A stretch of DNA of 45,986 nt from positions 1-45,986 of the forward strand of contig SKNY01000035.1 in assembly GCA_007123105.1 (NCBI GenBank), in the 5' to 3' direction. The notes beneath the pieces are model-generated. The model was not told the origin of the DNA. It saw nothing but the letters and a program-made list of their open reading frames with translations, and did not search any database. The translations under genes were made by a program, and so were the position numbers. The DNA is from Salinarchaeum sp. Its GTDB lineage: Archaea; Halobacteriota; Halobacteria; Halobacteriales; SKNY01. Positions 10,395 through 32,866 of the stretch are shown here, piece after piece. The first letter of the stretch is position 1, and the number at the start of each line of letters is the position of its first letter.

Positions 10395-11855
10395 TTAGCG
10401 CGCGGTGTAATTGGGTCCCAACGCCGCCTCGTGGCCGTCCCGGGCAAGCAGTGCGAGTCGGGCCATACCGTGGAGGAGAAACCCCGTCCCGAGTTGGTTC
10501 TCGTAGTGATCGACCGTTGGTGTCCCTCGAGGCAGGGGGTCCGCAAAATACGACGGCAGAAGCCGATCGATCGTGGTAAGACCGTCCTCAAGCCAGCGGG
10601 ATTCGTTGGTTCTGGCATACAGGTCGGCGAACAACCCCGTCGTACAACCGGCCGCGAACGCCCAAACGGGAATCGTACCGTCCGGACCTACCCCACGTAC
10701 GTTCTCAAAGGACGTGTCCGCGAGCGGGATCGTTCCATCCGGTGGAAACGGATGCTCTCGGTATCCTCGGCCAATCTCGAGGGCCCATTCGAGAAACGCA
10801 TCCCGTCCGGTCAGTTCGTGGGCAGCGAGCAATTGTAGGCCGCGCGTAGCGGCGACTTCGCCCGGCGGGGTACCGCCGTACACCGACGCCCACCATGCGG
10901 CGGGAGAATTGCCGTGGTCCGCGTAGTGATCGAGGAGTGCGTCACAATAGGTTTCGCCGCGGTCACGAAGCCGAGCCGCACGCTCGGATGCACCGTCGGC
11001 GAGCAAATCTGCGGCATCATACAGGCTGACGGCGTGCGAGAGCGTCTGTCCGACTGCCGGCCGATCTGCGTGCCCACGACTCTCGAGCGGAAGGAGGTCG
11101 TCATCATGTCGTCGGGTCCACCAGTAGTCGACGAGTTCGTCAATGCGCCGCAGATACTCATCATGGGGATCCTGCGTGTACACGAACGCCCAGTCGTATA
11201 CGTAGTGGCCGCCATGCCGGGGGAAATCACAGGAGCGATCGCCCACCGGAAAGCGGGCCTTTTCGGTGATGTAGGCGTGCCGGATGTACTCGCGGTTCTC
11301 CGGATCGTTCCAGTGGTAGGTGAGCCCGTCGGCGAAATCATGGACTGCCTGGGGATTTCGGGCGTAGATCCGCTCCCAGAGGCGGGCAGGCACGAGCCGG
11401 AGATGGTCGTGGATTGCCGGTCCCGGGTGCTCCCGATCGTGCGCGCGGCTATTACCGACCCGATGTTCATCGAGATGCCAATAGGCGTGTTCACCCCACG
11501 GAAATAACCCAGTCACACTCCCGTTGGACTCACGATCGAAGGTTCGACCCACGCACCGACTCGCAAAGCTATCCAGATACCGATCGATCGCGGCGTCATA
11601 GGCCGGTCGGTCGCCCGACGTGGCCAATGCTGACATGGTCTGGACGATCGGTTCGTCGTGAATCAGGTTGGTTCCGCGTGGTGCTCGATCGTGGTTTCGT
11701 TGACCGGGTACGGTCGGTGGCAGTGTCTCAAGGAGGTTCCCGCTCTTCGGGTCCGCGATGGACGGGAAGAGGCCGTCGGTTTCGGCGCTCGCATCGATCA
11801 GGATGTCGATGGCATCCAATACGTGATCGAGCGCTCGGGAAGCACGGTCGTCCAT
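10395..11855 (-). CDS. Uncharacterised large enzyme, probable (alpha/alpha)-barrel glycosidase/polysaccharide lyase-like
   Basis: Long ORF with good haloarchaeal composition (Asp/Glu rich); aromatic/His-rich helices GLTYHWNDPENREYIRHAYI, GGHYVYDWAFVYTQDPHDEYLRRIDELVDYWW; placed beside mannonate dehydratase. Start chosen at internal Met 11855. Confidence 0.55.
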   Translation of the reverse strand: MDDRASRALDHVLDAIDILIDASAETDGLFPSIADPKSGNLLETLPPTVPGQRNHDRAPRGTNLIHDEPIVQTMSALATSGDRPAYDAAIDRYLDSFASRCVGRTFDRESNGSVTGLFPWGEHAYWHLDEHRVGNSRAHDREHPGPAIHDHLRLVPARLWERIYARNPQAVHDFADGLTYHWNDPENREYIRHAYITEKARFPVGDRSCDFPRHGGHYVYDWAFVYTQDPHDEYLRRIDELVDYWWTRRHDDDLLPLESRGHADRPAVGQTLSHAVSLYDAADLLADGASERAARLRDRGETYCDALLDHYADHGNSPAAWWASVYGGTPPGEVAATRGLQLLAAHELTGRDAFLEWALEIGRGYREHPFPPDGTIPLADTSFENVRGVGPDGTIPVWAFAAGCTTGLFADLYARTNESRWLEDGLTTIDRLLPSYFADPLPRGTPTVDHYENQLGTGFLLHGMARLALLARDGHEAALGPNYTAR

Positions 11856-11901
11856 GGCCAGATGGGGACCGGGTCGTCCATGTAACCGATGGTAGGGGCA
11901 A

Positions 11902-12861
11902 TCAATCCGATGTTTGTTCCATGAGCCCCCGCATATATCCGATCGCGTGGAGTCTGCCCTTGATCGTCTCGTCGCCATCTCCCGCGGTCACGATTGGATA
12001 GTGATCGGGACGAATCGGCCCGTCGAAGCCGATGTCCCGATAGGCTCGCATCGCGGCAAGCATGTCGGTCTGACCATTGTCGTGCCAGCTCTCATAGAAA
12101 TTCTCCGACGTTCCGACCACGTCGCGGAAATGGACAAAATGAATGGCGTCATCAAAGCGTCTGATTTCGGCCGGAATGTCTGCCCCCATTGCCGCGAAAT
12201 TACCCTGCCCGAGACAGATACCATTGTTCGGACTCGGATACAGATCAATCAATCGCTGGAACGCGTCGGGGTCAGTCATAATCCGGGCAGTATCTCCGAT
12301 CGGTCCGTCGATCGGGGGATCGTCGGGATGGATGGCGAGTTTTACGCCAGCCTCCTCGGCCACGGGAACAACCTCCGCGAGGAAGTCCTCAAGTCGGCTC
12401 CAGAGCTGCTGGGCGGAGACCGCTGGTGCATCCACGTCGATGGGGTTCCCCTCGAGGTGGCCGGGAAGCTGTTGGTGGTTGTACGCGGTTCCACGCGAGC
12501 CGCCACGGATCCGTGCGCGGCTTGTCCGAATGACCGGATAATGCGTTCGCCAGCTCCAGCACCAGATCGGAATGCCGAGTTGCCCCATGTTCCGGATGAG
12601 CGTCTTGACCGACTCAATCTGGGTATCCCGTTCGTCGGTATCCAACCGAATGGCGTCCATCGGGGGGCGTTCCTCGAGTACGGCGACGTCGAGGCCACGG
12701 GCGGCGGCGCGTGATTGCATCGCCCGAAGCGGCTCGTAGTCCCAGGGTTCGGCGTCATCAGTGCCAGCCGGAAGATTGAATACGCCCGTCTCGATGCCGG
12801 TTTGATTCGCGACGTCCCACACGGCATCCGGAGTCGGCCCCAAGCGGAGTGCAAGCTGCAT
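11902..12861 (-). CDS. uxuA: Mannonate dehydratase (UxuA family)
   Basis: IPIWCWSWRTHYPVIRTS, VKLAIHPDDPP, LYPSPNNGICLGQGNFAAMG, IHFVHFRDVVGT, DHYPIV metal/active-site motifs. Confidence 0.88.
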   Translation of the reverse strand: MQLALRLGPTPDAVWDVANQTGIETGVFNLPAGTDDAEPWDYEPLRAMQSRAAARGLDVAVLEERPPMDAIRLDTDERDTQIESVKTLIRNMGQLGIPIWCWSWRTHYPVIRTSRARIRGGSRGTAYNHQQLPGHLEGNPIDVDAPAVSAQQLWSRLEDFLAEVVPVAEEAGVKLAIHPDDPPIDGPIGDTARIMTDPDAFQRLIDLYPSPNNGICLGQGNFAAMGADIPAEIRRFDDAIHFVHFRDVVGTSENFYESWHDNGQTDMLAAMRAYRDIGFDGPIRPDHYPIVTAGDGDETIKGRLHAIGYMRGLMEQTSD

Positions 12862-13909: not shown

Positions 13910-15085
13910 ATGGTGGAGGAAACGCCACGCTTTGGGTTGAACACCTACGAACCGGGCGACACTGACTGGGACCACGGCGACACCGTGAACGCCGTCGACG
14001 AACTCGCGATTGCCCGCGGTTCGATCAAAGATCGGCCCGAGACCGGCAGCTACGACGACGAATTGTACCTTGCAACGGATCAACGCGTCCTCTGGCGGTG
14101 GGACGACGACGAAGCCGATTGGATCGCAGCCGGCGGTGTCGGCTCCGCGGACGCGCCACTCGACGAGCTGGTTGCAACACTCGTCTCCGCAGACAGCGTC
14201 GCCACCGACGAACTCGCGAGCAATCGGCTCGATTCTACCACAGTTCCGGACGGATTAACCCTCAATGTCGACCACGACGATCAACGTGAATCCTCGACGA
14301 TCGACTGGGAGACCCCCTCCCGGTGGGACTACGACTCGGGCGAGTTTCAGTCGCTGTTAGAAACCTCCTATGCAGTCGGTGGGGGCTACGGTGTCTCCGG
14401 ACACTGGCAGATCATGTCCGCCCACCACTACGGACCGGCATACAACGTCCCCTTTCAGCGCGACGTGCACTGCCCGATTCACATCTACGGGGCCGAACCC
14501 GACGATGGGGCCGCCGAATTTAGCATTACTTTTGGCGACTTACATAACCGCCGACATCGAATGTGGCTCTCGAAGGCCGGTGTCACGATGCTCGAAGAGC
14601 CTTCACCCGCCGCCGAGTTCTCCATCCTCCGGCACTACGCGAATCATGATCAGGTAACCCACATGGCGATGACACCCAACTATCTGCGCGAGGGCGAAAA
14701 CATCACCGAAGAACACACGCCGATCAGCCCGGGAACATTCAGATTTCGTGGGGCCTACTGGAACGACGGGCTCGAGACCGCACGAATGCTCCAGTTCACA
14801 CCGTCGATGGACGGTGATGACCATCGGTTCCACGTCGCCCTCGAGGTCGAATCAGCGGATGGTGATCTGGAGGAAACTGCCCGCATCGATCAGGACGGCA
14901 CCTGGACGTACCGTGATCTGGCCGCCTCGGCGTGCTTCCGGCCGCCTTCGGTCGAAACCGTCGAGGAGCTTCCGGTCGATGCCAACGAACCCGAACTCGT
15001 GTGGGTTCGCGACGCGAGCGCATACTTCACCTACACCGAGACGGACGGATGGCTCGAAATCGGGAATGTGACGTCGACTGATTGA
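13910..15085 (+). CDS. Phage tail/fibre-like or surface structural protein of unknown function
   Basis: ETPRFGLNTYEPGDTDWDHGDTVNAVDELAI..., then SADSVATDELASNRLD segment and C-terminal SVETVEELPVDANEPELVWVRDASAYFTYTETDGWLEIG, reminiscent of tail-fibre-type proteins. No enzyme motif seen. Confidence 0.6.
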   Translation: MVEETPRFGLNTYEPGDTDWDHGDTVNAVDELAIARGSIKDRPETGSYDDELYLATDQRVLWRWDDDEADWIAAGGVGSADAPLDELVATLVSADSVATDELASNRLDSTTVPDGLTLNVDHDDQRESSTIDWETPSRWDYDSGEFQSLLETSYAVGGGYGVSGHWQIMSAHHYGPAYNVPFQRDVHCPIHIYGAEPDDGAAEFSITFGDLHNRRHRMWLSKAGVTMLEEPSPAAEFSILRHYANHDQVTHMAMTPNYLREGENITEEHTPISPGTFRFRGAYWNDGLETARMLQFTPSMDGDDHRFHVALEVESADGDLEETARIDQDGTWTYRDLAASACFRPPSVETVEELPVDANEPELVWVRDASAYFTYTETDGWLEIGNVTSTD

Positions 15086-16516: not shown

Positions 16517-17395
16517 ATGGGCATCGAGACGGTTGCGGTGACCGGCGGGAGCGGAACAGTGGGTAGCGAAGCGATCGCCGTTCTCAACGAACGTGGATAC
16601 CGGACGATCAATCTCGACGTCGCCGCGCCGTCGGAACGGATTGCGGACGAGTACGTGGAGGTCAATCTCGTGGATGCCGGTGAAACGTGGGCGTCCATCG
16701 GAGAGCGGGATGCAGACGCGGTAATCCACCTCGGGACCATCATCCACCCCCAATCCGATCCCGGCCATATTGTGTTCGAAAGCAATGCGATGACCTCGTA
16801 TCACGTGCTGGCGGCAGCCACCGGGCTCGGACTCGAAGCTGTCGTCCTCGCCTCGTCGATCAATGCAATGGGATGGAGCTTCCAATCGGAACCACCGGCG
16901 GTCGAGTATCTGCCGATTGACGAGCAGCATCCGGTCTCGCCCCGCGACCCGTACGCCCTCGGGAAATACGTCATCGAGGTACTGGCCGACGGCTTTGCGC
17001 GCATGCCGAACGGCCCCGATCGCATCGCGTCGATGCGATACCCTGGTGTCCGGTCTGCATCACGACTGGCCGACATGGCAGCCGATCCGCAATCGGTGGC
17101 CGATCTCCGGGCAGCCACTGACATCGGAAATCCGAGCGGTGCGTACATCGCCGCGGCTGACGCCGGTCGCATCTGTGCGGACGCGATTGCCGCCGACTTC
17201 ACGGGTCACGAAGTCTTCTGGGCGACGGCGGCGGACGTCGCCATCGACGGAACGGCAACAGAGGTTGCAGCCGCGTTGTTCCCGGATGCCGAACGTCGGG
17301 CCCCGCTCGAGGGAACAGAAACAATCTTTGACATCTCGAAAGCGGCGGACCTGCTTGACTGGGAACCCTGCCAGAGCTGGCGCGATCATCAGTGA
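16517..17395 (+). CDS. NAD-dependent epimerase/dehydratase-family SDR, uronate dehydrogenase-like
   Basis: AVTGGSGTVGSEAI, VIHLGTI, VVLASSINAMGWS, DPYALGKYVIEVLADGFAR (YxxxK). Confidence 0.75.
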   Translation: MGIETVAVTGGSGTVGSEAIAVLNERGYRTINLDVAAPSERIADEYVEVNLVDAGETWASIGERDADAVIHLGTIIHPQSDPGHIVFESNAMTSYHVLAAATGLGLEAVVLASSINAMGWSFQSEPPAVEYLPIDEQHPVSPRDPYALGKYVIEVLADGFARMPNGPDRIASMRYPGVRSASRLADMAADPQSVADLRAATDIGNPSGAYIAAADAGRICADAIAADFTGHEVFWATAADVAIDGTATEVAAALFPDAERRAPLEGTETIFDISKAADLLDWEPCQSWRDHQ

Positions 17396-17444
17396 GTCCG
17401 GCCGAAGACAGAAGTATTTGGTCCTCGCGATTGACCAATCGGCC

Positions 17445-18308
17445 ATGGTAACACCCGAGATCATCGCCGATTACGCTTGCCACACCGGTGAGGGGCCTCT
17501 CTGGCATGCCGACCGAAACGTCCTCTACTGGATTGACATCCCAGCGGGCAAGCTTTTCGAGTACCATCCCGACAGTGGTGATCACGACATCGCCTACGAA
17601 CGCAACGGACCGATCGGCGGATTCACCATCGAAACCGACGGGCGGTTGCTCCTCTTCGAGGAAGCCGGCCGGATCGAAGCGTGGGACGGCTCGTCGACAA
17701 CCGTCATTCGCGAATCCCTCCCCAATGAGGATGGATCCCGGTTTAACGACGTCATCGCAGATCCTCTCGGTGGCGTGTTCGCGGGCACGATGCCCGCCGG
17801 CTCAAGTCCCGGTAGGCTCTATCGCTTCGATCCGGACGGTTCGTATGCCATCATTGCGGAGGAGGTAGGCGTTCCCAACGGACTCGGTTTTACACCTGCA
17901 CTCGACTCGCTGTATTTTACGGAATCAGAAGCCCAGCGGATCTACCGATACGAGTACGACGGTGAGACGGGCGAGGTTTCGAACCGTGAAGTCTGGCAGA
18001 CATTCGACGAAAATGCCGGCATGCCAGACGGGATGACCGTCGACGCGACGGGCGCCGTGTGGATCGCATTCTGGAATGGAGACCGGCTCGAACGGCGAGC
18101 ACCCGATGGCACGGTACTCGATACGGTATCATTTCCCGCCCGGAAAGTCGCCAGTGTTACCCTCGGTGGACCGACGTTACAGACGGCCTTCGTTGCGTGC
18201 GCTGGCGGTGACGAGAAGGAGAGCGAAGGGCCGGGCGCAGGTGCACTGTTTGCATTTGACGCGGGAGTCCGCGGCCTTCCCGAATTCCGATCGACACTGG
18301 CGGACTAG
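17445..18308 (+). CDS. SMP-30/gluconolactonase/LRE family protein
   Basis: GEGPLWHADRNVLYWIDIPAGKL, RFNDVIADPLGGVFAGTM, GVPNGLGFTPALDSLYFTES, GMPDGMTVDATGAVWIAFWNG, RKVASVTLGGPTLQTAFV. Confidence 0.92.
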   Translation: MVTPEIIADYACHTGEGPLWHADRNVLYWIDIPAGKLFEYHPDSGDHDIAYERNGPIGGFTIETDGRLLLFEEAGRIEAWDGSSTTVIRESLPNEDGSRFNDVIADPLGGVFAGTMPAGSSPGRLYRFDPDGSYAIIAEEVGVPNGLGFTPALDSLYFTESEAQRIYRYEYDGETGEVSNREVWQTFDENAGMPDGMTVDATGAVWIAFWNGDRLERRAPDGTVLDTVSFPARKVASVTLGGPTLQTAFVACAGGDEKESEGPGAGALFAFDAGVRGLPEFRSTLAD

Positions 18309-19306
18309 CGCCGTCGTGGTGCGGTGGGGCCGACCGGGTCGGAAACCCTCTCACTGGGAGCGACGAAATAGCTCACCAGTACGCCAACGATCACCGCAAT
18401 GAGGAGAGTCCCGCTCCAGATGTGAATCGTCCAGGCGATCCCCCAGATAAGTTCGTGGACGAGAAAATACGTACCGAACAGGGCGATCGGGATTATTGAC
18501 CCGAGCAATCGGCACAATAGAACTGGCCGCTGACCCGCCCTACCCAGGACGAGGATGACGTCCGCGGTCAAGCCTGCAACTACCATTGGTACGAGCAATG
18601 CATTTTCCACGCCAAGGGTAAACGGGAGGCCCAAGAGCACGAATGTGACCGTCATCACGCCTGGAGCGAGCGCAAATCGTCGGGCGAGCACCAGCACCAA
18701 CCCGACGGCGAGGACCGTGAAGGCAACGACGCTGAGGACGGCGTGATCTTCGCTGCCACCGGTGGCGATCGGTCCGATAAGCGGATTGCCGTACATGCCG
18801 AAAGCGCCGATGAGCGTCCCGATAAACGCGGCCGAGCAGGCAAGTGGGAACTGGGCACGGAACGACCGTTCCACCCCCCGGAACCAGGCAGATCGTAACG
18901 GGCCGGTCACGAGAAGTGCCCCAGCCACTGCCAGGAGGAGATGTGCCGGGCTTGTTAACGCTTCGAGCCCCGATTCAGCACCAAACGCCCAGTGCCAGAA
19001 GAAATCGACTGGGCCTCCGATCACGAACAACCCAGCACCCAGGAGCGAATACCGATATCCCGTTGGGATAGCCCGGAGGATGCCATCCGAACCCGCAACG
19101 TGTTGTGCGGCGGCAATGATGAACAGGCCCGCAATCATGGCTGTACCGTAGATCGTGATGTGTGGCAACGTGAGAAATCCCTCCTCCTCGAAGCTGATCC
19201 CGGCTGCATGAATTCGAAAATCCCAGATGAGGCCGATCATGAACACCGCACACACGGCGGAATACAGGAGATCGAAACGTCGGTACGGAAACGGTCGCTC
19301 GTCCAT
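18305..19306 (-). CDS. Polytopic membrane protein of unknown function
   Basis: Many hydrophobic helices; polar/His motifs LPHITIYGTAMIAG, DFFWHWAFGAESGLEALTSPAHLLL inside predicted helices. Start set at internal Met 19306 (ORF opens at 19321). Confidence 0.75.
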   Translation of the reverse strand: MDERPFPYRRFDLLYSAVCAVFMIGLIWDFRIHAAGISFEEEGFLTLPHITIYGTAMIAGLFIIAAAQHVAGSDGILRAIPTGYRYSLLGAGLFVIGGPVDFFWHWAFGAESGLEALTSPAHLLLAVAGALLVTGPLRSAWFRGVERSFRAQFPLACSAAFIGTLIGAFGMYGNPLIGPIATGGSEDHAVLSVVAFTVLAVGLVLVLARRFALAPGVMTVTFVLLGLPFTLGVENALLVPMVVAGLTADVILVLGRAGQRPVLLCRLLGSIIPIALFGTYFLVHELIWGIAWTIHIWSGTLLIAVIVGVLVSYFVAPSERVSDPVGPTAPRRR

Positions 19307-19381: not shown

Positions 19382-20542
19382 TTACCACTCGGCGACGCTG
19401 CCGTCAGCGTGTCGCCAGATCGGATTGTGCCAGTCGACGTCGGCGTCGACTTGCTCGCGCACGTGCTCCTCGTCAATCTCGATCCCGAGTCCCGGATCGT
19501 CCGGGATCGTGGCGTACCCGTCTTCATATGCGAAGATGGTCGGATCTGCTAGATAGTCGAGTACGTCGCTGGTCTGATTGTAATGAATCCCAAGGCTCTG
19601 TTCTTGGATCAACACATTCGGGGTGCAGGCGTCCACTTGCAGTGACGACGCGAGCGCGATGGGTCCGAGTGGACAATGAGGTGCCACTGACACGTCGTAC
19701 GCCTCGGCCATGGTTGCGATCTTTTTAACTTCCGAGATTCCGCCTGCATGTGACAAATCTGGTTGGATGATGTCGACAATTCCCTGTTCGAACAGACTCT
19801 TGTAATCCCAGCGCGAGAACATCCGCTCGCCGGTTGCGATGGGGATCGACGTGTGTCGGGCCACCTCCGGCAGCGCATCATTATGCTCTGGGAGCACGGG
19901 CTCTTCGATGAACAACGGATCGTATGGTTCGAGTGCCACCGCGAGGCGTTTGGCCATTGTCTTGGTGGCACGACCGTGCAAATCGACACCGACGTCAATG
20001 TTCTCACCGACGGCCTCCCGAACTTGTGCGAGGCGGTCCGCAGCGGCAGCGACCGACGCGGGATCGTCAACTCGTTCGAGCATTGGCGTTGCATTCATTT
20101 TGACCGCCGAAAATCCCTCTTCGACCTTCCGGGCAGCCTCCTCGGCGACGGCGTCCGGCTCGTCGCCACCGATCCACGAGTAGACGCGCACACGTTCCCT
20201 GGCGCGCCCACCCAACAGTTCATACACCGGGCATCCGAGGCGCTGACCCTTGATGTCCCAGAGTGCCTGATCGATACCGGCGATCGCTGACATTAACACC
20301 GGGCCGCCGCGATAGAAACCGCCCCGATACATCGCCTGCCAATGGTCCTCGATGGGTGCTGGATCCTTGCCGAGCAGGTAGGAATCAAGCAGTTCTTCGA
20401 CGGCGGTCCGAACCGTCCGGGCACGACCTTCTACAACTGGTTCCCCCCAGCCGACGAGGCCGTCGCTCGTTTCTAGCCGGAGGAACAACCAGCGCGGCGG
20501 GACCGCGAAGAGCTCGTAATCGGCGATCGTTGCGCCGCTCAT
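19382..20542 (-). CDS. Enolase superfamily, D-galactonate dehydratase (DgoD)-like
   Basis: YELFAVPPRWLFLRLET, VGVDLHGRATKTMAKRLA, FIEEPVLPEHN, IATGERMFSRWDYK, VAPHCPLGPIALASSLQVD. Confidence 0.87.
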   Translation of the reverse strand: MSGATIADYELFAVPPRWLFLRLETSDGLVGWGEPVVEGRARTVRTAVEELLDSYLLGKDPAPIEDHWQAMYRGGFYRGGPVLMSAIAGIDQALWDIKGQRLGCPVYELLGGRARERVRVYSWIGGDEPDAVAEEAARKVEEGFSAVKMNATPMLERVDDPASVAAAADRLAQVREAVGENIDVGVDLHGRATKTMAKRLAVALEPYDPLFIEEPVLPEHNDALPEVARHTSIPIATGERMFSRWDYKSLFEQGIVDIIQPDLSHAGGISEVKKIATMAEAYDVSVAPHCPLGPIALASSLQVDACTPNVLIQEQSLGIHYNQTSDVLDYLADPTIFAYEDGYATIPDDPGLGIEIDEEHVREQVDADVDWHNPIWRHADGSVAEW

Positions 20543-20623: not shown

Positions 20624-21601
20624 CTACAGCGCGGCAAGCATGCCCTTGAGATAGCCGACCGTGTACCCGCGGCCGGCGGCCCACGGGTCGTCACAGTTCA
20701 TCGTCGGCACGTGATCGGGAATCATTACTCCCGAGAACCCAACGTCATTGAATGCCTGGATCACAGCCCATTCGTCGTAGTTACTCGACTCCTCATCAAG
20801 GAACGTTTCGTGAAATCGCGGTACTGTGCCGGCAACATCCCGGAAATGAACGTACGTGATCTCGTCGCGTGGACCGAAATACTCGATGACTTCGATTACA
20901 TCCTCACCCATTTCAGAGAACACACCTAATCCGAATTCGATGCCGTGATTGGGCGAGTCGACCAGATCCATAGCGCGTTTGTAATTGTCGAAACTACGGA
21001 ATAAACGGGGGATACCGCCCAGTGATTCGACCGGCGGATCATCCGGATGAACGCACATTGTGACCCCAGCCTCTTCGGCTACCGGAATCAGGCGTTCGAG
21101 AAAATACTCGTAATTCTCCCATAACTCCGCTTCAGTGTACGTGCGATCGTGGGTCTGCGGTGCATCCTGTAACTGTTCGTGATCGTAGGCTCTTGCTTCG
21201 GCTCCACCGCGGACTGGATAAGTCCTCGAACTGCTCCAGACTAGATTCGGCATCCAGTTGTACCCGAGAATCGGGATGTCCGCCCGGCCGAGATTTCGAA
21301 TCGTCGTTTCAAGGCCGTCGAGTTGGTCCTCCCGACGAGGGCCATCAAGCATCACGTCCTCATAAAAGTCGAGCGGGACGTTTTCGATCGCGGCGAGCCG
21401 CAGTCCGGCGTCCTCGACACGGTTTCGTAACTGGACAAGCTCCTGGAGATCCCACGATGACTCCCCGGAAAGCGGCACGTCGGCGGCCTTACCGGCAAAG
21501 TTGAAGATCACATCCTCGATGCCGAGCTGGGCGATAAATCGCAACTGGTCGCGGGATGGGTCACGTAGCTGGCCGATGCCGACACGCATAGTTTCGGTCA
21601 T
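20624..21601 (-). CDS. uxuA: Mannonate dehydratase (UxuA family) paralog
   Basis: IPILGYNWMPNLVWSSSRTYPVRGGA, VTMCVHPDDPPVES, DSPNHGIEFGLGVFSEMG, ITYVHFRDVAGT, MIPDHVPTM. Confidence 0.87.
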   Translation of the reverse strand: MTETMRVGIGQLRDPSRDQLRFIAQLGIEDVIFNFAGKAADVPLSGESSWDLQELVQLRNRVEDAGLRLAAIENVPLDFYEDVMLDGPRREDQLDGLETTIRNLGRADIPILGYNWMPNLVWSSSRTYPVRGGAEARAYDHEQLQDAPQTHDRTYTEAELWENYEYFLERLIPVAEEAGVTMCVHPDDPPVESLGGIPRLFRSFDNYKRAMDLVDSPNHGIEFGLGVFSEMGEDVIEVIEYFGPRDEITYVHFRDVAGTVPRFHETFLDEESSNYDEWAVIQAFNDVGFSGVMIPDHVPTMNCDDPWAAGRGYTVGYLKGMLAAL

Positions 21602-21665: not shown

Positions 21666-23642
21666 CTACCGTTCGTCCTCGGGGACGTAGCGTAATCCGC
21701 CGTTGTACCAGATCCGGTCCTCGTGGCGCTGGATCCACGCCGGCGGGTTCTCCTCGGGGAGATCAACGTGCCACGCGTTGTCGTTGAAGACGAACTGTTG
21801 TGTCGATGCGGTAACCGGCGAGCGCACGACGATCGTGTTTGCAACCCACCCGAGTCGGTCGACCAGGTTTTGGTATGCATCCGGATCGACGGTCACGGCA
21901 AGCCGATCGGCCATCGCGCGGGTGTCGTAGGATTCCCAATCGTCATGATCTGCGTCCGGCTCGCCCATTGGCGGAGCTTCGACTGTTTCGGGGAGGTTGT
22001 TGTTCCATGCAGTCCAGGAGAGGTTTGATTCACCGAAAATGGTGTCGTACACCCATTCGGGGACGAGACCACCGATGTAATCCGATTCGACTCGCCACGG
22101 ATCGTCGCCCGGACGGTCGGTCACCATACTCGCCGTAATGCCCCACTCTTCGAGATCAGAGAACCAGTCAGATCCGAGATCGCCGACATAGCCCATCCAG
22201 TCGAAGCCACCGATCGTCAGATCGATTGCCTCACCTGCAGTTTGACCGCCTCCATCCTCTTGCATGGTCCAGAATCCATCTGCATTGCGTTCGAAGCCGC
22301 CGAGTTCCATCTCTGCCTCGGCCTGATCCCAGTCGGCATCGAGGTCGCCGTAATCCAGCATGGAGTCCGTGACGGTGTCACTATGCCAGCTATGGAACCG
22401 ATCATCCGTGAGGAACGGATGGCCACCAACCTGGGGGAGCGATCCGACATCTTCCCAATCGGTCGGTCTGGTGGCCCAGATCCACGCCCGGCGGAAATAG
22501 GGATTACTGGTGGGTGGTACTTCGGCATTCATATTCCAGCCCCACGTGTCAAACTCGCGCTGGAACTCGACGAGCTTAGTGGGGAAGTCGTACTCCTCGT
22601 CGGGGTCGTAGGACGTGAACGATTTCTCCTCGGCCAGGAATAATTCTTCGCGGGTCGGATCACGTTCCTCACGGGAGATAAACCGGAGTTTTTCGTAATT
22701 CAGTTCATCCGTCTTATATCGCGTAATCCCGTTCCGCTCCGGGATGAGTTCGAGCTCCCAATAATCCTCACCAACATCTCCGATACTGCCGTCGAGTCGG
22801 AATTCGAAGGGAATCTGGAAGTGATGAACGATTTCCTCGTCCGTCTCGATCCGGACGTCACCGAGATCGTCGCGAATCTCTCCGATGGCGTCCATGTCAC
22901 CCCCGGTGTCCTCGAACTGATCGAGCCAGGGTCGCGTAAAGTCGGTGCTCGACTGAATGTTTTCACGATCCATCGTCTGGGTAAGTGCCCAGTCCTCGGT
23001 CCAGGTATCAGCTAGTGAAAATCGCATCCGGAAGTCATCGAGCAGTTCGCGGGCGATGATGTTCGGCTGCCAGTCGAGGTCATCGCCGCCATTATGCCAG
23101 TCACGAAGTTCCCACAACGTTGCCAGGTCGTGGGCGTCGAGGACCTTGTCACTCCACCAAACGATGTCCTCGCGGAGTTTGACCTCGAGAATACCCGGGG
23201 AATAGTCCCAGTCCTCGATAACCTCGCCGTAGTACTGGAGGTCACCGAATGAACGACCAACCAACGAATATTGGTGTCGATCGTCGTTCACCCACCGGGC
23301 GAGCGCTTCACCGTTCCAACCAGCGGCGTACTGGGCATCTGCGGGATGTGGCTCGCCGGTAATGTGAATGGCCGCGACGTCGTGGCGGACGATTTCCTCG
23401 ACATCGTCCGCATCATCAGCATCATCAGCATCGTCGTCATCAGTGACGACCGTATCGTCGGTGTCGTCGGTATCGTCGGTATCGTCGACGTCATCCACAT
23501 CATCGGTATCGTCACTGACGTCATCGGGAGTATCATCTCCCAGACACCCGGCAACGACCCCGGTACCAACAGCACCCGTTGTGAGCAAAAATCGGCGGCG
23601 GTCGGTTCCTAGTACTCGTCGATCGGTGGTACGTCGTACCAT
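21666..23642 (-). CDS. Tat/lipoprotein extracellular solute-binding protein (peptide/oligosaccharide SBP-like) with Asp/Thr-rich linker
   Basis: TDRRRFLLTTGAVGTGVVAGCLGDD signal/lipobox, DDTDDVDDVDDTDDTDDTDDT linker, YSPGILEVKLREDIVWWSDKVLDAHDLAT typical of family-5 SBPs. Confidence 0.8.
   Translation of the reverse strand: MVRRTTDRRVLGTDRRRFLLTTGAVGTGVVAGCLGDDTPDDVSDDTDDVDDVDDTDDTDDTDDTVVTDDDDADDADDADDVEEIVRHDVAAIHITGEPHPADAQYAAGWNGEALARWVNDDRHQYSLVGRSFGDLQYYGEVIEDWDYSPGILEVKLREDIVWWSDKVLDAHDLATLWELRDWHNGGDDLDWQPNIIARELLDDFRMRFSLADTWTEDWALTQTMDRENIQSSTDFTRPWLDQFEDTGGDMDAIGEIRDDLGDVRIETDEEIVHHFQIPFEFRLDGSIGDVGEDYWELELIPERNGITRYKTDELNYEKLRFISREERDPTREELFLAEEKSFTSYDPDEEYDFPTKLVEFQREFDTWGWNMNAEVPPTSNPYFRRAWIWATRPTDWEDVGSLPQVGGHPFLTDDRFHSWHSDTVTDSMLDYGDLDADWDQAEAEMELGGFERNADGFWTMQEDGGGQTAGEAIDLTIGGFDWMGYVGDLGSDWFSDLEEWGITASMVTDRPGDDPWRVESDYIGGLVPEWVYDTIFGESNLSWTAWNNNLPETVEAPPMGEPDADHDDWESYDTRAMADRLAVTVDPDAYQNLVDRLGWVANTIVVRSPVTASTQQFVFNDNAWHVDLPEENPPAWIQRHEDRIWYNGGLRYVPEDER
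23403..23530. repeat. Imperfect 3/9-nt tandem repeats (TCGTCGGTA/ATCATCAGC units) inside SBP coding sequence
   Basis: e.g. TATCGTCGG TGTCGTCGG TATCGTCGG TATCGTCGA; encodes the Asp/Thr/Val linker of the minus-strand SBP. Confidence 0.8.
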
Positions 23643-23902: not shown

Positions 23903-25636
23903 TTATAACAGCGTTGGGTCATTAGCCTGACCGGTCGCATACGCATCGACGGCCCGGACTCGATCGACTGCAGCGGAGAGTGCTTGGGCATACGTAGACG
24001 AGCCAGGATCGGTCAATGCCGATTCGAGCCGGGGTACCGCTTCTAAGCGTCCCTCCCGTTCGGCTTTCGCCAGTCGAATGATCACATCATCCGGATCGTA
24101 GAAGGACGAATCAGATGTCTCCGCCTGTACACAGGCTTCGGCTAACGAGCGTACGCGTGTCGGACGTTCGTCGACCCATGATAGAAATCGATCGATCCAT
24201 GAAACGAACTCTTCTGCATCTGCACGGAGTGTATGCCACCGTTGACGGTTTCGCGGGAGGTATGCACTGATGTGGTCGGCCAGCACATCAGCATCGACAT
24301 CCTGAAGCGAATCGGGCTGTCGTTTTGATCGAGCGGCTAGTATCGTGGCTGCCTGCCGATGTTGTCGATCTGTACCGAGATGATCATTCGCCACGGCGTA
24401 GCTCAGTACCCCGGCCGCAAACGCAATCCGTTCGTTTGCATGCGCACGACGATATGCGAACCGATCACGAGGCGGCTCGAGAACGTCACTCAACCAGTCA
24501 CCTGGCTTCCCGATCGCTCCGACGTGCATCGCGTCAGGATCCTCGGCAAGAATTGTTTGCGTCCGCTCGGATATTGTATCATCCCGCATGGAGATTAGGC
24601 GAACATCCTCCACCAACGCGATCCACGCAATGGGGAGATCAGTAATCGTTCGGGGGTTGGCTACGACGTTTTGATGAGGCTCGAACGCCTCCTCGGATCT
24701 CCATGCGATCCCTGCGACCCTCGCAGCCTCCATATGTTTGATTTTGCCGGTAAATAATGCACTCGCGGTGCAGAGATACTCATAACACTTGGCTAGACAT
24801 GTGGCATATTGGCTTTCCCCCGGGTTCTTGAGGAGCGCTTCGAGGTCCGGCGTCCTCCTTTCGTTGGCCTGGATTCCCCGTGCGAGGTCGATGATCGGAT
24901 CGTCGGCCAGGTAGAATTGGGGTTCGTTAATAAACTGATCCATGTGCCACGGATCCGGCTCGAAGTATGCTTCTGCATACCACCGTATCGGGTAATCCGG
25001 CGTTTGACGTTCGCTAAGAATCCGATCAACGGTTCCGGTATCAAACATCCCTTGTAGGTCCACAACGCACTCATAGCAGCTGGCGAGCTCCGCCATCCAT
25101 TTGTATCGGAACAGTGGCTCGACGTTTTGGACATCCACAGCGTTTGATGCCTGATGGCTTCCCATCGAGACTTCGAACATGCCGGGAGGAAACGTCTCAT
25201 CCTGCCCCGCGTAAATCTCGCGAAAGAGGACCGAATCATGATATATCTTGGATAGTTTTTTGGGAGCCCCGCCGTCGACCCGCGGATAGAGCAATCGATT
25301 TGTCGTGTCCTCGTACTGTTTGTACTCTGGATCGACGTGTCGAAAGATTGGTTTGAAGTGACGGTCGGTAGCCCGATGTGTCCACCATCCCAGCACGAAT
25401 GCGAACTCGCGTTCGAAGGCGGGATCACCGGCTCTGCGATCCCAAGTAGCGCGTGCCTTCCGCACCCCGGGAATGATGTTGTTAGCGTTGCCTCGCGAGA
25501 GCGCGCCCATTCGGCCTGCAGTGTGGTGTTCAGCCAGTACGGTCGTCACTTCCGGACAAAGGAGGTTGTCATCGACCGCGATCGCGATGCGACGGCAATC
25601 GTCAAAGGCTGCGAGATGGGTGATCTGTTCCGACAT
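23903..25636 (-). CDS. 577-aa protein, zinc-dependent phospholipase C/P1-nuclease-like fold suspected, internally duplicated
   Basis: ITHLAAFDDCRRIAI...AEHHTAGRMGALSRG...FVLGWWTHRATDRHFKPIFRH in the N half; second half repeats the pattern in degenerate form (see findings). Confidence 0.6.
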   Translation of the reverse strand: MSEQITHLAAFDDCRRIAIAVDDNLLCPEVTTVLAEHHTAGRMGALSRGNANNIIPGVRKARATWDRRAGDPAFEREFAFVLGWWTHRATDRHFKPIFRHVDPEYKQYEDTTNRLLYPRVDGGAPKKLSKIYHDSVLFREIYAGQDETFPPGMFEVSMGSHQASNAVDVQNVEPLFRYKWMAELASCYECVVDLQGMFDTGTVDRILSERQTPDYPIRWYAEAYFEPDPWHMDQFINEPQFYLADDPIIDLARGIQANERRTPDLEALLKNPGESQYATCLAKCYEYLCTASALFTGKIKHMEAARVAGIAWRSEEAFEPHQNVVANPRTITDLPIAWIALVEDVRLISMRDDTISERTQTILAEDPDAMHVGAIGKPGDWLSDVLEPPRDRFAYRRAHANERIAFAAGVLSYAVANDHLGTDRQHRQAATILAARSKRQPDSLQDVDADVLADHISAYLPRNRQRWHTLRADAEEFVSWIDRFLSWVDERPTRVRSLAEACVQAETSDSSFYDPDDVIIRLAKAEREGRLEAVPRLESALTDPGSSTYAQALSAAVDRVRAVDAYATGQANDPTLL

Positions 25637-25739: not shown

Positions 25740-26289
25740 AGTTGCCAGGAAACGTGACGGCGGGTGTGTTCCGTCAATCGGTCTCCCCGTGTGGCGGGTC
25801 GACCATCTGTGACGAATGAGTCCATAAATATATAGATGTCGGTACCGGTGGAACACCGACCAATCGGCCGTTGAAGAGGGTTCATGCCAAGTTGACTAAC
25901 TCCCTAGTGATTGCTATAACCCATCTTATTAATTGCGGGCGTGGACAAATTCCGCGCATATTCGCCCGTTATTCGGTGGTATTGATCATCTTGTACTGAT
26001 TGCAGAAACCATGACTGCAACAGAATCGAAATTCGACAGTTCAGTACGTGAGTAGTTAAGTTGATGTGAGCTGATTGACGTATTCTACTTCTGTCGCCCA
26101 ATGTTCCTGCCGGAGTAAAGTAGGGAGAGATACGTTCGACCGTGAATACCACACACGTTCGGCCTGACTGAACAATATCAAAAATATAAACATATTTCTA
26201 AATTCCTCCATCGTTCCTTATACCTGGTGGGTTCTACATTATTCGAACTTATCTCTATGAAATCAATGAAAGTTGGTGTTCGGTTCCAT

Positions 26290-26303
26290 CGAACATCTGT
26301 TCG
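26290..26303. promoter_or_regulatory. Palindrome CGAACA-tc-TGTTCG upstream of iclR-1
   Basis: 6-bp perfect arms; the 9-mer GAACATCTG recurs at 26325-26333 before the ATG at 26345. Confidence 0.4.
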
Positions 26304-26344
26304 TACTCGGTAGGTTTAATCATAGAACATCTGAACGGAACACC

Positions 26345-27133
26345 ATGACTTCTGACGACATCGTCACCGTATCTGCGACCGAGACGAGCCTGCGGATCGT
26401 CGAAGGCATTCATGATCTCCAGGGAGCAGGGATCTCCGAACTTGCACGCCACCTGGACCTTCCGAAAAGTACCGTTCATAATCACGTCAGAACGCTCTAC
26501 GATGCGGAGTATCTAGTCACGAATGACGGAGACTACGATCTCGGACTCAGATTTCTCGAGTTCGGCGATTATGTCCGGAAATACCACCAATTCATTCAGA
26601 TCGGGAGTTCGGAGGCCGAAAAGCTGGCAGAACAGACGGGCGAACGAGTGAACCTCACGGTAGAAGAGCACGGACGGGGCGTCTATGTGTTCAAAGCAAA
26701 CGGCTCTGAGGCGGTCCATATGGACACGTATGCCGGTAAACGTGTCCCTCTTCATGCGACAGCCTTCGGAAAGGCAATACTCTCCCAATGTCCGGCAACT
26801 TTCGTCGATGATATTATTGACCGACATGGGCTGCCTTCGCTTACGTCCCAAACAATCACTGATGCCGATGAGTTACACGCACAACTCGAGATGATCGACG
26901 AGCAGGGATATGCCGTCGATCAGGAAGAACGGCTCGAGGGCGTTAGCTGTGTGGCTGCCCCCATTGTCGTTGAGGGTGAGGTCCGGAGCGCAATTAGCGT
27001 CTCGGGTCCCAAGAGCAGGATCCAAGGCGATGCGCTTGGTACCGAGCTCCCGGATCTCGTGACGAACGCCGCGGAGGTCGTCCGTATTAATATCACCTAC
27101 GCCGACCAGAACACCTTCGACACGTCCTGGTAA
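26345..27133 (+). CDS. IclR family transcriptional regulator
   Basis: wHTH SLRIVEGIHDLQGAGISELARHLDLPKSTVHNHVRTL; effector domain AGKRVPLHATAFGKAILSQCP, CVAAPIVVEGEVRSAISVSGP. Confidence 0.93.
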   Translation: MTSDDIVTVSATETSLRIVEGIHDLQGAGISELARHLDLPKSTVHNHVRTLYDAEYLVTNDGDYDLGLRFLEFGDYVRKYHQFIQIGSSEAEKLAEQTGERVNLTVEEHGRGVYVFKANGSEAVHMDTYAGKRVPLHATAFGKAILSQCPATFVDDIIDRHGLPSLTSQTITDADELHAQLEMIDEQGYAVDQEERLEGVSCVAAPIVVEGEVRSAISVSGPKSRIQGDALGTELPDLVTNAAEVVRINITYADQNTFDTSW

Positions 27134-27193: not shown

Positions 27194-27790
27194 ATGACGG
27201 ATACGGCAGACTGTTGTAAGGTCAGTCGCAGTCTCCACTTGTTTGGCCGATCGTCCTACCTGGAGGAACTCGCTCGAACGGCCGACCGGGGAAACACCAG
27301 CCTTCGGGACCTGGAAACCCGCGTGAACCGGGTGATCACAGAAGGTGCCCTCGAAGCTGCTTCGGGACCAATCGATCTCGCGGTTCGTACCATCATCGAT
27401 GCATTATCTGGCGATCCAAGCCCTCGCGTCCGCGCACGAGTTCGTACCCGACTCACACAGCGGGATGTAGATCCCGACCAACTCAAGAACGCCTACGTCT
27501 CCTATCGAACGATCAAAAACCATCTCAACGAGTGCGAACATATTGACACGAGCAGGGACGAATCACCAATCACTCCAGCACGAGCTACGGATACGATAGG
27601 GTGGTCGGAAACCAGACATGAGGCGATTATTCAGCGGACACTGGAACGGCTACGGTCAGCGAACGAACTCGAACTCCGCGGATCCATTGAGGTATCGATT
27701 CATACGACCGTTACATGTGATCGATGTCATTCGTCAACACCGTTACGGGCTCTGCTCAACGGTAATGCGGCCTGTAATTGTGATACGTGA
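27194..27790 (+). CDS. RdfA-like (rod-determining factor A) family protein
   Basis: CCKVSRSLHLFGRSSYLEELARTADRGNTSLRDLETRVNRVITEGAL...DVDPDQLKNAYVSYRTIKNHLNECEHID matches the RdfA pattern as remembered; C-terminal CDRCHSST...ACNCD; followed by an SMC-like gene. Confidence 0.75.
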   Translation: MTDTADCCKVSRSLHLFGRSSYLEELARTADRGNTSLRDLETRVNRVITEGALEAASGPIDLAVRTIIDALSGDPSPRVRARVRTRLTQRDVDPDQLKNAYVSYRTIKNHLNECEHIDTSRDESPITPARATDTIGWSETRHEAIIQRTLERLRSANELELRGSIEVSIHTTVTCDRCHSSTPLRALLNGNAACNCDT

Positions 27791-27839
27791 AAACCGGCGA
27801 CTATTAGGTGGACCGATTGAATTGCAAATTCGAGCGAAG

Positions 27840-29861
27840 ATGGACGTAGAACCGCCAGGTGACTCGATTCTCCATGCTGTCGAGGCGTCGTTGGGTACGC
27901 CAATCGATGATGGAACGGTCACGACATCGATTGAAGTTGAGCGCATCGGAGGAATCGAACGCGCGGAACTCTCGGTTTTACCCGGAATCACGATCCTCGC
28001 GGGGGAAAACGCCACGAACCGGACCTCGCTGCTGCGGGCGATCAACGGAGTCCTCGGCGGAACGATGGCATCCTTGCGGTCGGATGCTGGTCGGGGTGAG
28101 GCAAGACTTGTGTTCCATAATGGTACCCACGCGGTTTCATTCGATCGACGATTTGAACGCGTGGCACCGGCTGAAGCAACCCAAGACGATGCTCGCCATG
28201 TGGGAAATCCGATGTCGGAAGATCCCGAGACAGTAGATTCGTTCGTCTCGATCCTCGAGACTAACCCAGCTCGTCGCGTCATCGACCGTGGTGGAAATGG
28301 CCTCAGAGACGTGTTGCTCGGACCGGTCGATACCGAAGCGATCGAGCGACAAATCGTCAGCACGCGCCGGCGTCGGGATGAGCTCACAGAGCGAATCGAG
28401 GAAATCGATGGTCGGCTAGCAGATGAACACGTGCTTCGAGAACGACATGGCGCAGTGAAGGCACGGCAATCAGAAGTGAACGCGGACATCGCGACCCTCG
28501 AGGATCAAATTGACCAATTGGACGCAACGAAGACAACCGGACCGGAGACGCAACGTCTACTTGAGGATCTTGATAACCACCGGACCCGACTTCGTACCCT
28601 CAATGACGATGTGGAACTCAAGCAGTCAGAACTGGATGCCTTGACGGCAGAGGCCGAAGCGATCGAGGAGCGCCGCGCAGAGATCAGGGCCGCACATGAC
28701 ATCGACACCGCCGAAAATGCCTGCTCGATCGATGACCGGATCGACGAGCTACGTCGGAAACGTCGTACGATCGACGACCGGCAGAACGGAGCCAAAGCGA
28801 TCGTCGAGGAACTGGTCCAGTTGATTTCGTTAACAGAACGGCTCCTGGACGACTCGGCGTTCGCGACCGTGCACGTAGCCGATGATATCGACCACAATGC
28901 AGGTACGTCCCTTACGTGTTGGACGTGTGGATCGGAAACCAGATCCGCAGCCGTCGAGAAGCGGCTCAACGATCTTCGAGATCGGTTGAATGAGCAACGA
29001 ACAATACTCCGCGAACTAGAGAACGAATATCAAGCCATCGATGATGAACTCGCAACTCTCGACTCGATCCGAGAAACGTATCAGGAGCAATCAGCGCGAC
29101 TCGAACTGATCCAGGAAGAACAACAGACCCTTGTGGATGATCTCGAAGAACTCCGCCACGAACGATCTGCTGAACAAGCGAGGGTAGCCGATCTGGAGGC
29201 AGACGTCGCTTCAGTAACGGAAGCTCACGAATCCACATTAGTGGAGTCCAAATCCCGATTGTCGGACCTGCGCCACGAGCGCGGACGGCTCGACGAACAG
29301 CGTGCATCGATCAGCACCGAACTCGATGAACTCGAAGCGCTTGCCGAAGAACGGTCGACTCTCGTCGAGAAACGTTCGACGACGCGGTCAGAGCTTGAGA
29401 ACCTTCGGAAGCGAATTTCAACGATCGAACGGCAGACGATCGAGCGGTTTAATGAAACCATGGCTGCTGTGGTGTCGCAATTGAATTATCAAAACATTGG
29501 TCGCGTCTGGATTACTCGTCTCGAGGAAAGAACTCAGACGCGATTCGAACTGCAGATTGCCAGGGAAGAGAACGGTACGACATGGGCGGATACGATCGAC
29601 CACCTGTCCGAGAGTGAACGGACGGTCGTCGGGATTGTCGTCGCCATCACGGGGTACATTGTTCATAAGGTCGGCGAGTCGGTTCCGTTTCTCCTGCTGG
29701 ATTCCGTCGAGGCAATTGACGCTGATCGGTTGGTCTCGCTCACCGAATTGCTGCTTGACCACACGACCTTTCTCCTCGTTGCATTGCTTCCGGAGGACGC
29801 AGCTGCATTCGCCGATGATTATGTTGTCCTCACGCCGGAGCAGTGGCAGGCCATAGGGTAA
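27840..29861 (+). CDS. Archaea-specific SMC-related (Sph-like) protein with Rad50-type zinc hook
   Basis: Walker-A-like GITILAGENATNRTSLLRAING, long coiled coil, central CWTCGS (CxxC at about 28917-28928), C-terminal HLSESERTVVGIVVAITGY signature and VPFLLLDSVEAID Walker B. Confidence 0.85.
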   Translation: MDVEPPGDSILHAVEASLGTPIDDGTVTTSIEVERIGGIERAELSVLPGITILAGENATNRTSLLRAINGVLGGTMASLRSDAGRGEARLVFHNGTHAVSFDRRFERVAPAEATQDDARHVGNPMSEDPETVDSFVSILETNPARRVIDRGGNGLRDVLLGPVDTEAIERQIVSTRRRRDELTERIEEIDGRLADEHVLRERHGAVKARQSEVNADIATLEDQIDQLDATKTTGPETQRLLEDLDNHRTRLRTLNDDVELKQSELDALTAEAEAIEERRAEIRAAHDIDTAENACSIDDRIDELRRKRRTIDDRQNGAKAIVEELVQLISLTERLLDDSAFATVHVADDIDHNAGTSLTCWTCGSETRSAAVEKRLNDLRDRLNEQRTILRELENEYQAIDDELATLDSIRETYQEQSARLELIQEEQQTLVDDLEELRHERSAEQARVADLEADVASVTEAHESTLVESKSRLSDLRHERGRLDEQRASISTELDELEALAEERSTLVEKRSTTRSELENLRKRISTIERQTIERFNETMAAVVSQLNYQNIGRVWITRLEERTQTRFELQIAREENGTTWADTIDHLSESERTVVGIVVAITGYIVHKVGESVPFLLLDSVEAIDADRLVSLTELLLDHTTFLLVALLPEDAAAFADDYVVLTPEQWQAIG

Positions 29862-30976: not shown

Positions 30977-32866
30977 ATGCAGTCGATTACCGCAGGCGAG
31001 CCCATCGATCAGCCCCCGGAGTGGGCGATTCTCGAACGCCAGTGTCTGGAGCTGTTAAGCGATGCAGTGGACCCGACGTGGGAGACCTACTACCCGGACG
31101 GCGAACTCGTCTGGCCCACGGACGGCGGTGGTACTGACGATGCATACGAGTGCTTCTCTAACCTACCCCTTGTGTATCTCCTCGGCGGTCACGAGCAAGC
31201 GTTGACGGCGGCAATCGAACACTGGGAACACGTCACGACACGATTCGCCAGAGATGGGCCGGGCGACGCCCACACCGATATTGTCGACGAATACTTTGCG
31301 ACACATGACTGGATGCACATGGGCGAGGGAAACCAACTATTCTACCACATCTGTCTCGCCGCACCGGATCACCAACGGTTCAGGGAACGGGCCGTTCGAT
31401 TCGCGGATCTCTATCTCGACCCCCATTACGACAACTGGGATCCGGATTCCGGTCTGATCCGTGCCCCGAACACCGGCAGCGACGGACCAACCGACCGGAC
31501 GAACCCCGAAGATGAGACGGATACCCATACGTGGGGATACGCTGACTGGAAGGACCCCTACCATCTCCCGTTTACCGACATCGAAGGGATCGAGTCCGTC
31601 GAAGACTTGCGCGATCCAGCCGCCGCCGCTCGCATGGGCGAGGCCGTTGTCGAACGGTGGCGGGGCGACACTGCCGTTAACTTAGCGGTGACCTCCTTAC
31701 TTGCCAACGCCTACCTTCTCACAGGTGAGGAGAAGTACCGAAAGTGGATTCTGGATTATGTCGATCGGTGGGCCGATGCGACGGCTGAAAACGATGGAAT
31801 CCTCCCGGACAACATCGGCCTGGCAACCGGCACTGGCGAGCACACCGGCGGCAAGTGGTATGGTAACTACTACGGCTGGACGTGGCCGCACGGCTGGTTA
31901 ATCCTCGGTGACTCCTTGCTGACCGCAATCGAAAACGTGGGATTGGTGGCGGGTGACCCGGAACACGGCGCGAAGATGGCTAGGACGACGATCGATGCAC
32001 TCGTGGAGGCAGGCATCGAGCGGGATGGCGTCCTGCACGTCCCGTTTAAACATGGCGATCGCGGAACATTCGAGTACGAACCCCTCAACCCGAACCGTGT
32101 GCTCCGTGACGCTGACGGAGCTGTGCTATGGCGTGACGGATGGTTCGAGATCCAGCCAATGCAAGCCGCCCATCCAGTCCATCTGTATCAGATGACTGGT
32201 GCGCCGGCGGATCGAGCTCGTGCGGACCGATTGCTCGAGGGGCGGACCCCGCAACCGATACAAGCCGGTGGGAAAGACGCTGGCGGTAACGAGGGACCGT
32301 GGTACGAATTTATTTCCGGGAATCGACCCACGTATCCCGTCGACATCTTCCGGCATACCATTACCCACGTCGCAACTATGCTCGACCTCGCGCGTGGCCG
32401 CCAGTGTAATTACGTCCCGGAGGATGATGAATTCCTCAACCGGGACAGCCCCTTTGATGTCGAGGGACTCATCCAGTGTATTCTCGGCGGTCCGATGCCG
32501 TTGTACAACGGTGGTTTGCTCCGAAGCCGGATGCGACCGTTCGATCCCGACCGCAAGCGGCCGGGACTGCCTATCGATGTTGCGGCCCTGGTCTCGGAGA
32601 TAACACCGACGCAAACGACAATCGAGCTTGTCAACATTGGTGCCCGCAAACGAACAGTCGCTCTCCAGGCAGGAACGTTTGGCGAACACGTCTTTGATGA
32701 CGTCCACTACGACATTCGAATCAACGGGCGGCGACAGCGCCGGACCGCCACGGTGGACGGATCTGTCCTCTCGGTTACGTTACCGGGTGCCACCGCGGCA
32801 CGGCTTGAGTGTGGTACCCGCCGGTTTGCGAGTCAGCCGACGTACGACGCACCGTGGGACGACTAG
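30977..32866 (+). CDS. Uncharacterised 629-aa (alpha/alpha)-barrel-like polysaccharide-active enzyme candidate
   Basis: YGNYYGWTWPHGWLILGDSLLTAIENV, FATHDWMHMGEGNQLFYHICLAAP, EGPWYEFISGNRPTYPVDIFRHTITHV; C-terminal beta-rich segment TQTTIELVNIGARKRTVALQAG. Confidence 0.6.
   Translation: MQSITAGEPIDQPPEWAILERQCLELLSDAVDPTWETYYPDGELVWPTDGGGTDDAYECFSNLPLVYLLGGHEQALTAAIEHWEHVTTRFARDGPGDAHTDIVDEYFATHDWMHMGEGNQLFYHICLAAPDHQRFRERAVRFADLYLDPHYDNWDPDSGLIRAPNTGSDGPTDRTNPEDETDTHTWGYADWKDPYHLPFTDIEGIESVEDLRDPAAAARMGEAVVERWRGDTAVNLAVTSLLANAYLLTGEEKYRKWILDYVDRWADATAENDGILPDNIGLATGTGEHTGGKWYGNYYGWTWPHGWLILGDSLLTAIENVGLVAGDPEHGAKMARTTIDALVEAGIERDGVLHVPFKHGDRGTFEYEPLNPNRVLRDADGAVLWRDGWFEIQPMQAAHPVHLYQMTGAPADRARADRLLEGRTPQPIQAGGKDAGGNEGPWYEFISGNRPTYPVDIFRHTITHVATMLDLARGRQCNYVPEDDEFLNRDSPFDVEGLIQCILGGPMPLYNGGLLRSRMRPFDPDRKRPGLPIDVAALVSEITPTQTTIELVNIGARKRTVALQAGTFGEHVFDDVHYDIRINGRRQRRTATVDGSVLSVTLPGATAARLECGTRRFASQPTYDAPWDD

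Follow-up and report, generated by a model that had tools for sequence, protein, structure and literature searches.

Three kinds of described system come closest to the protein considered here, a 577-residue product encoded in a haloarchaeal sugar-catabolism region. The first comprises internally duplicated enzymes in which one half is degenerate (a pseudo-enzyme). Like these, the protein consists of tandem homologous halves, one of which is without the putative polar site residues of the other and without a segment of the chain; unlike them, it is an orphan, for which no family assignment, demonstrated activity or single-domain relative has been found. The second comprises Zn-dependent phospholipase C (Zn-PLC, PF00882) and the S1-P1 nucleases (PF02265). 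In Bacillus cereus PLC, zinc is held by nine residues: W1, H14, D55, H69, H118, D122, H128, H142 and E146. The orphan resembles these proteins in a predicted HxxxD helix (H87/D91), an N-terminal histidine and, in low-confidence models, a mostly helical character, but differs in having no profile match, at most three of the nine ligands, a duplicated domain and no signal peptide. The third comprises haloarchaeal sugar-acid catabolic clusters, with UxuA, mandelate racemase/muconate lactonizing enzyme (MR/MLE) dehydratases, IclR regulators and ABC transport. The neighbours and regulators of the orphan gene are of this type; however, none of the other haloarchaeal UxuA-bearing loci examined holds a relative of it.

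The window analysed is a stretch of 45,986 nucleotides from Salinarchaeum sp. (contig SKNY01000035.1), in an assembly of 1.88 Mb that is incomplete (67%). Positions 374–44364 form a long sugar-catabolism region, of xylan/uronate type: it encodes GH10, two UxuA-like proteins, four MR/MLE dehydratases, an SMP-30 lactonase, Gfo/Idh/MocA, a right-handed beta-helix protein, two IclR regulators and a BNR/sialidase-like protein. The genome is placed among the haloarchaea because UxuA and other proteins of the neighbourhood have their best matches in Halobacteria. A preliminary description had placed the orphan gene correctly, as a single open gene with a 577-residue product (Table 1), without naming its strand; this is the minus strand, and the plus strand of the same interval has stops throughout. 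The gene has a GC content of 56% and a low third-position GC of 0.58, as do the neighbouring regulators and an archaea-specific SMC-related protein (ASRP), at 0.58–0.61. Its codon-usage distance to the rest of the window (0.077) is as small as that of the other genes (0.049–0.116), which speaks for a real gene. Neither a signal peptide nor a lipobox was seen in the protein sequence, and the product is probably cytoplasmic.

Downstream on the same strand follow the gene for a 658-aa protein, the UxuA-like gene, the MR/MLE dehydratase gene and a gene for a membrane protein. Farther away lie the genes for the SMP-30 lactonase, GH10, Gfo/Idh/MocA, the beta-helix protein, the second UxuA-like protein and the other three MR/MLE dehydratases. 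With such neighbours a role in sugar-acid catabolism is a natural guess. The gap to the 658-aa gene is 260 bp, however, so that the orphan may be transcribed apart from the sugar genes, and a sugar-catabolism region can hold genes unrelated to sugar.

Table 1. Features of the orphan gene and its neighbourhood (window positions; residues numbered in the 577-aa product)
Feature	Position	Strand	Basis
Whole gene, 577 aa	23903..25636	-	ATG at 25636, stop at 23903
Copy 1, residues 1-299	24740..25636	-	self-alignment
Copy 2, residues ~337-571, shorter	23924..24628	-	self-alignment
N-terminal repeat block of copy 1, residues 7-49	25490..25618	-	block alignment and shuffles
N-terminal repeat block of copy 2, residues 338-379	24500..24625	-	block alignment and shuffles
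C-terminal repeat block of copy 1, residues 241-299 (FYLADDPII...NPGESQYA...)	24740..24916	-	BLASTP, alignment, motif scan
C-terminal repeat block of copy 2, residues 512-571 (FYDPDDVII...DPGSSTYA...)	23924..24103	-	BLASTP, alignment, motif scan
GWWTHRATDRH, residues 83-93, polar cluster H87/D91/H93 of copy 1	25358..25390	-	alignment
GVLSYAVANDH, residues 409-419, copy 2 counterpart, only H419 kept	24380..24412	-	alignment
Segment ~residues 101-159, mostly absent from copy 2, contains YHDSVLFREIY (132-142)	25160..25336	-	gap placement; edges uncertain
658-aa protein, GCLGDD lipobox-like start, probable substrate-binding protein	21666..23642	-	23% to ABC substrate-binding protein
UxuA-like mannonate dehydratase	20624..21601	-	PF03786, E 1.7e-59
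MR/MLE family dehydratase	19382..20542	-	context
IclR regulator, upstream divergent neighbour	26273..27133	+	context

The protein had been described as an internal tandem duplication, to be judged by the significance of its self-alignment or the superposition of its predicted halves, and on the first of these points the evidence is strong. BLASTP of residues 1–322 against residues 323–577 aligned 97 aa at 30% identity (E = 2e-7). The Smith-Waterman score of one half against the other was 86, whereas 4000 shuffles averaged 33.5–33.8 and reached at most 72; 18 other proteins of the window scored 27–53 against either half. Aligned end to end, the halves lie 8.7 s.d. above 1000 shuffles. Two blocks, collinear in the two copies, could be aligned. 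The N-terminal match is the weaker of the two, yet still significant: for this block alone (5–48 versus 336–377) the score was reached by 3 of 2000 shuffles with BLOSUM62 and by none of 2000 with BLOSUM45. The segments quoted in the preliminary description (7–49, 338–379, 241–299 and 512–571) are all present, although their ends had been given off by one in places. Between the blocks, the middle parts (100–240 versus 425–515) gave no alignment above chance. The offset between the copies drops from 331 residues in the N-terminal block to 271 in the C-terminal block, indicating that copy 1 is longer by about 60 residues in the middle. Best kept between the copies are FYxxDDxIIxLA and PGxSxYA, which lie outside the proposed metal site. 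A degenerate DNA pattern for FYxxDDxIIxLA, derived from this same gene, occurred twice in 53 archaeal genomes, both times in this gene and 813 bp apart. No repeat is left at the DNA level, which means either an old duplication or a fast divergence of the copies.

An origin of this similarity in chance or composition would be in keeping with the local BLASTP alignment, which takes in just ~97 of ~250 positions, and with the middle that does not align above chance. Against it stand the E value of 2e-7, the end-to-end z of 8.7, a Smith-Waterman score above every one of thousands of shuffles, the much lower scores of the other window proteins, and two blocks that keep the same order in both copies. 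Such an origin is extremely improbable, and BLASTP, shuffles and collinear blocks already refute it at the sequence level. It is thus nearly certain, as far as sequence comparison can tell, that the protein consists of two homologous halves produced by tandem duplication, which by itself is an ordinary evolutionary event.

The two copies are unequal. Residues 1–325 contain 11 His and 7 Cys, and residues 326–577 (252 aa) contain 6 His and 1 Cys; copy 2 is without most of the His, Asp and Cys of copy 1. Being poorer in His and Cys and ~60 residues shorter, it may fairly be called, as it had been, a degenerate second copy. The further claim that the putative ligands of copy 1 are lost or changed in copy 2 holds for H7 (aligned with W338), H37 (D366), H38 (P367), H87 (Y413) and D91 (N417), but not for H93, which is kept as H419. 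R92 is paired with D418, and H133 and H161 fall within stretches that are absent from copy 2. As there is no outgroup, we infer the direction of loss and the status of copy 1 as the ancestral state; copy 1 would then be closer to the ancestor than copy 2.

AlphaFold2 models of the two halves, built from the two-sequence alignment, were of very low confidence, with pLDDT values of 40.8 and 39.8 and a pTM of 0.30–0.34. Both low-confidence models are helix-rich with a similar order of helices, a weak likeness given that the same two-row alignment lies behind both. A PDB search with the copy 1 model (pLDDT ~40) found nothing meaningful, the lowest E value being no better than 2.8.

The family had been called uncharacterised, and indeed no match to the protein was found in Pfam, NCBIfam, PHROGs or the PDB. 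PDB 2qng (E 0.84) was rejected as an expression-tag artefact and 7qiw (E 1.1) as a ribosomal protein. Searches of the tblastn type, which covered several hundred archaeal genomes, gave no relative in 394 genomes of the class, 59 relatives, 125 genomes of one large family or 394 genomes of the phylum (a set overlapping that of the class), and none was found with a half/half profile in 234 genomes. As a control, the neighbouring UxuA-like protein was found by the same genome search in 64 of 244 genomes. Bacteria were covered by a peptide-pattern scan of 84,980 prokaryote species genomes, using the whole protein and the half/half alignment; it returned no relative, and as it needs short, near-exact peptides, distant bacterial relatives may escape it. 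Plasmids and phages searched by tblastn, the plasmids also with the halves separately up to E 10, and viral contigs likewise held none. One genome match (E 7e-4, 73 aa) was rejected as chance, as it falls in R-rich sequence with several overlapping open frames; further weak matches were scattered, and two of the six inspected overlap sulfatase-like genes. At the level of synteny, no relative of the gene was present in three plasmid regions or at ten haloarchaeal loci that carry UxuA, and a literature search yielded nothing relevant to the protein. By ‘orphan’ is meant that no relative lies within reach of these searches, not that the protein is unique in nature.

The reading preferred here, and offered as tentative, is that of an orphan enzyme of sugar catabolism built as a fused pseudo-dimer, in which one half bears the site and the other is degenerate. 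The earlier interpretation, of one catalytic and one structural or ligand-binding half in an uncharacterised family, is upheld in part: in the duplication, in the unequal loss of residues and in the lack of a known family, the roles of the halves being putative. A domain of ~300 residues would have been duplicated in tandem, and the copies would then have diverged within a mostly helical, probably cytoplasmic protein. Copy 1 would have retained a polar cluster (H7, H37/H38, H87-x3-D91-x-H93, H133, H161 and C187-x2-C190); we infer that this cluster binds metal and that copy 1 acts, by hydrolysis, on a small carbohydrate-derived substrate that the neighbouring uronate/xylan-type catabolic genes would provide. 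From copy 2 most of the cluster would have disappeared, along with about 60 residues; this copy would have retained the C-terminal FY-x2-DD-x-II-x-LA ... PG-x-S-x-YA module, and may serve as the other half of the built-in pseudo-dimer, stabilising or shaping the copy 1 site. This proposal draws on the half-half BLASTP and shuffles, the collinear blocks, the His/Cys excess of copy 1, the gene context and, weakly, the helix-rich models with their similar helix order. Counting against it are the pLDDT of ~40, the empty PDB search with the copy 1 model, the 260-bp gap to the next gene, the retention of H419 in copy 2 and the failure of the searches to turn up a homolog that could show conservation of the proposed ligands or give the losses a polarity. 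If correct, a region for uronate/xylan-type utilisation would hold a two-domain orphan to which the searches assigned no family, fold or activity, its halves would be an internal record of an enzyme domain decaying into a structural partner, and an unassigned step would be added to haloarchaeal breakdown of plant polysaccharides.

The putative ligands had previously been linked to a Zn-PLC or S1-P1 nuclease fold, in which case copy 1 would be a divergent domain of that kind (PF00882/PF02265) and the protein a duplicated member of the superfamily. The idea was probably prompted by the stretch AFVLGWWTHRATDRHFKPIF, which looks like the HxxxD helix of Zn-dependent phospholipase C-like proteins. 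By eye, and as a lead only, THLA near the N-terminus and a Gly-Ala step after LAE are followed by AFVLGWWTHRATDRHFKP, reminiscent of the ‘GxxxHxxxD...HP’ helix found in intracellular Zn-PLC-like proteins, and the low-confidence copy 1 model is helical. The profiles nevertheless fail to recognise the protein: PF00882 was not detected at E <= 10, whether in the whole protein, in either half or by a six-frame search of the genome, nor was PF02265 at the same threshold in the 577-aa protein. Among the nine PLC ligands at most three (H7, H87 and D91) have plausible counterparts in copy 1, and in copy 2 all three are replaced. No equivalent of Asp55/His69 is visible in copy 1, the GALSRGN stretch being without Asp and no His occurring between 38 and 87; K95 stands in place of ‘HP’, no HxxxE comes afterwards, and the PDB search with the copy 1 model was empty. 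In other haloarchaea, the PF00882 matches inspected are small membrane proteins unlike the 577-aa protein, save for one secreted PLC-like protein. The assignment of the ligands to this fold is therefore not upheld. Descent from it is possible, though on the unlikely side, and the protein may work in a similar way, family membership being without support from the sequence.

Alternatively, neither half may be an enzyme; the protein would then sense a ligand or serve as a scaffold, as a symmetric repeat protein of helices whose residue differences reflect drift. That the block best conserved between the copies is the C-terminal FYxxDD...PGxSxYA module rather than the His cluster would suit this explanation, but the copy 1 segments rich in His, Cys and Trp (GWWTHRATDRH, YHDSVLFREIY and CYEC) look selected and the copy-specific difference of 60 aa is asymmetric, which makes it rather doubtful. 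A bolder form of the enzyme reading is improbable: the protein, so far seen in one uncultured haloarchaeon, would found a new enzyme family of halophilic sugar-acid catabolism, with a new fold or as a very divergent metal-dependent hydrolase, and its built-in degenerate copy would either regulate the active site or complete it.

Several other genes of the window deserve mention. The 658-aa neighbour matches no Pfam family apart from a weak TAT signal; it has three paralogs of 51–55% identity elsewhere in the same genome, where one locus shows more related-looking ORFs nearby (2–1438 and 17103–19097 of that locus). A search of 293 other haloarchaeal genomes at E 1e-20 found no counterpart, so it may represent a lineage-specific expanded family. 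A 629-aa protein (30977–32866, plus strand) has no match in Pfam or NCBIfam and a 527-aa protein (10395–11978, minus strand) none in Pfam; both are possibly unclassified carbohydrate-active proteins. The 391-aa protein at 13910–15085 (plus strand) looks by eye like a phage tail-fibre or baseplate protein, and its sub-threshold match to S1-P1 nuclease (E 0.065) is regarded as chance. A lipobox-bearing protein (42859–44364, plus strand) gave a weak match, below the cut-off, to the second helical-bundle domain of vanadium chloroperoxidase (E 8.6e-4). Positions 27194–29861 (plus strand), which have an IclR regulator of the sugar region on either side, encode RdfA (rod-determining factor) followed by ASRP, a pair that also lies beside sugar genes on a Halobaculum plasmid (20927–23559 of that locus).
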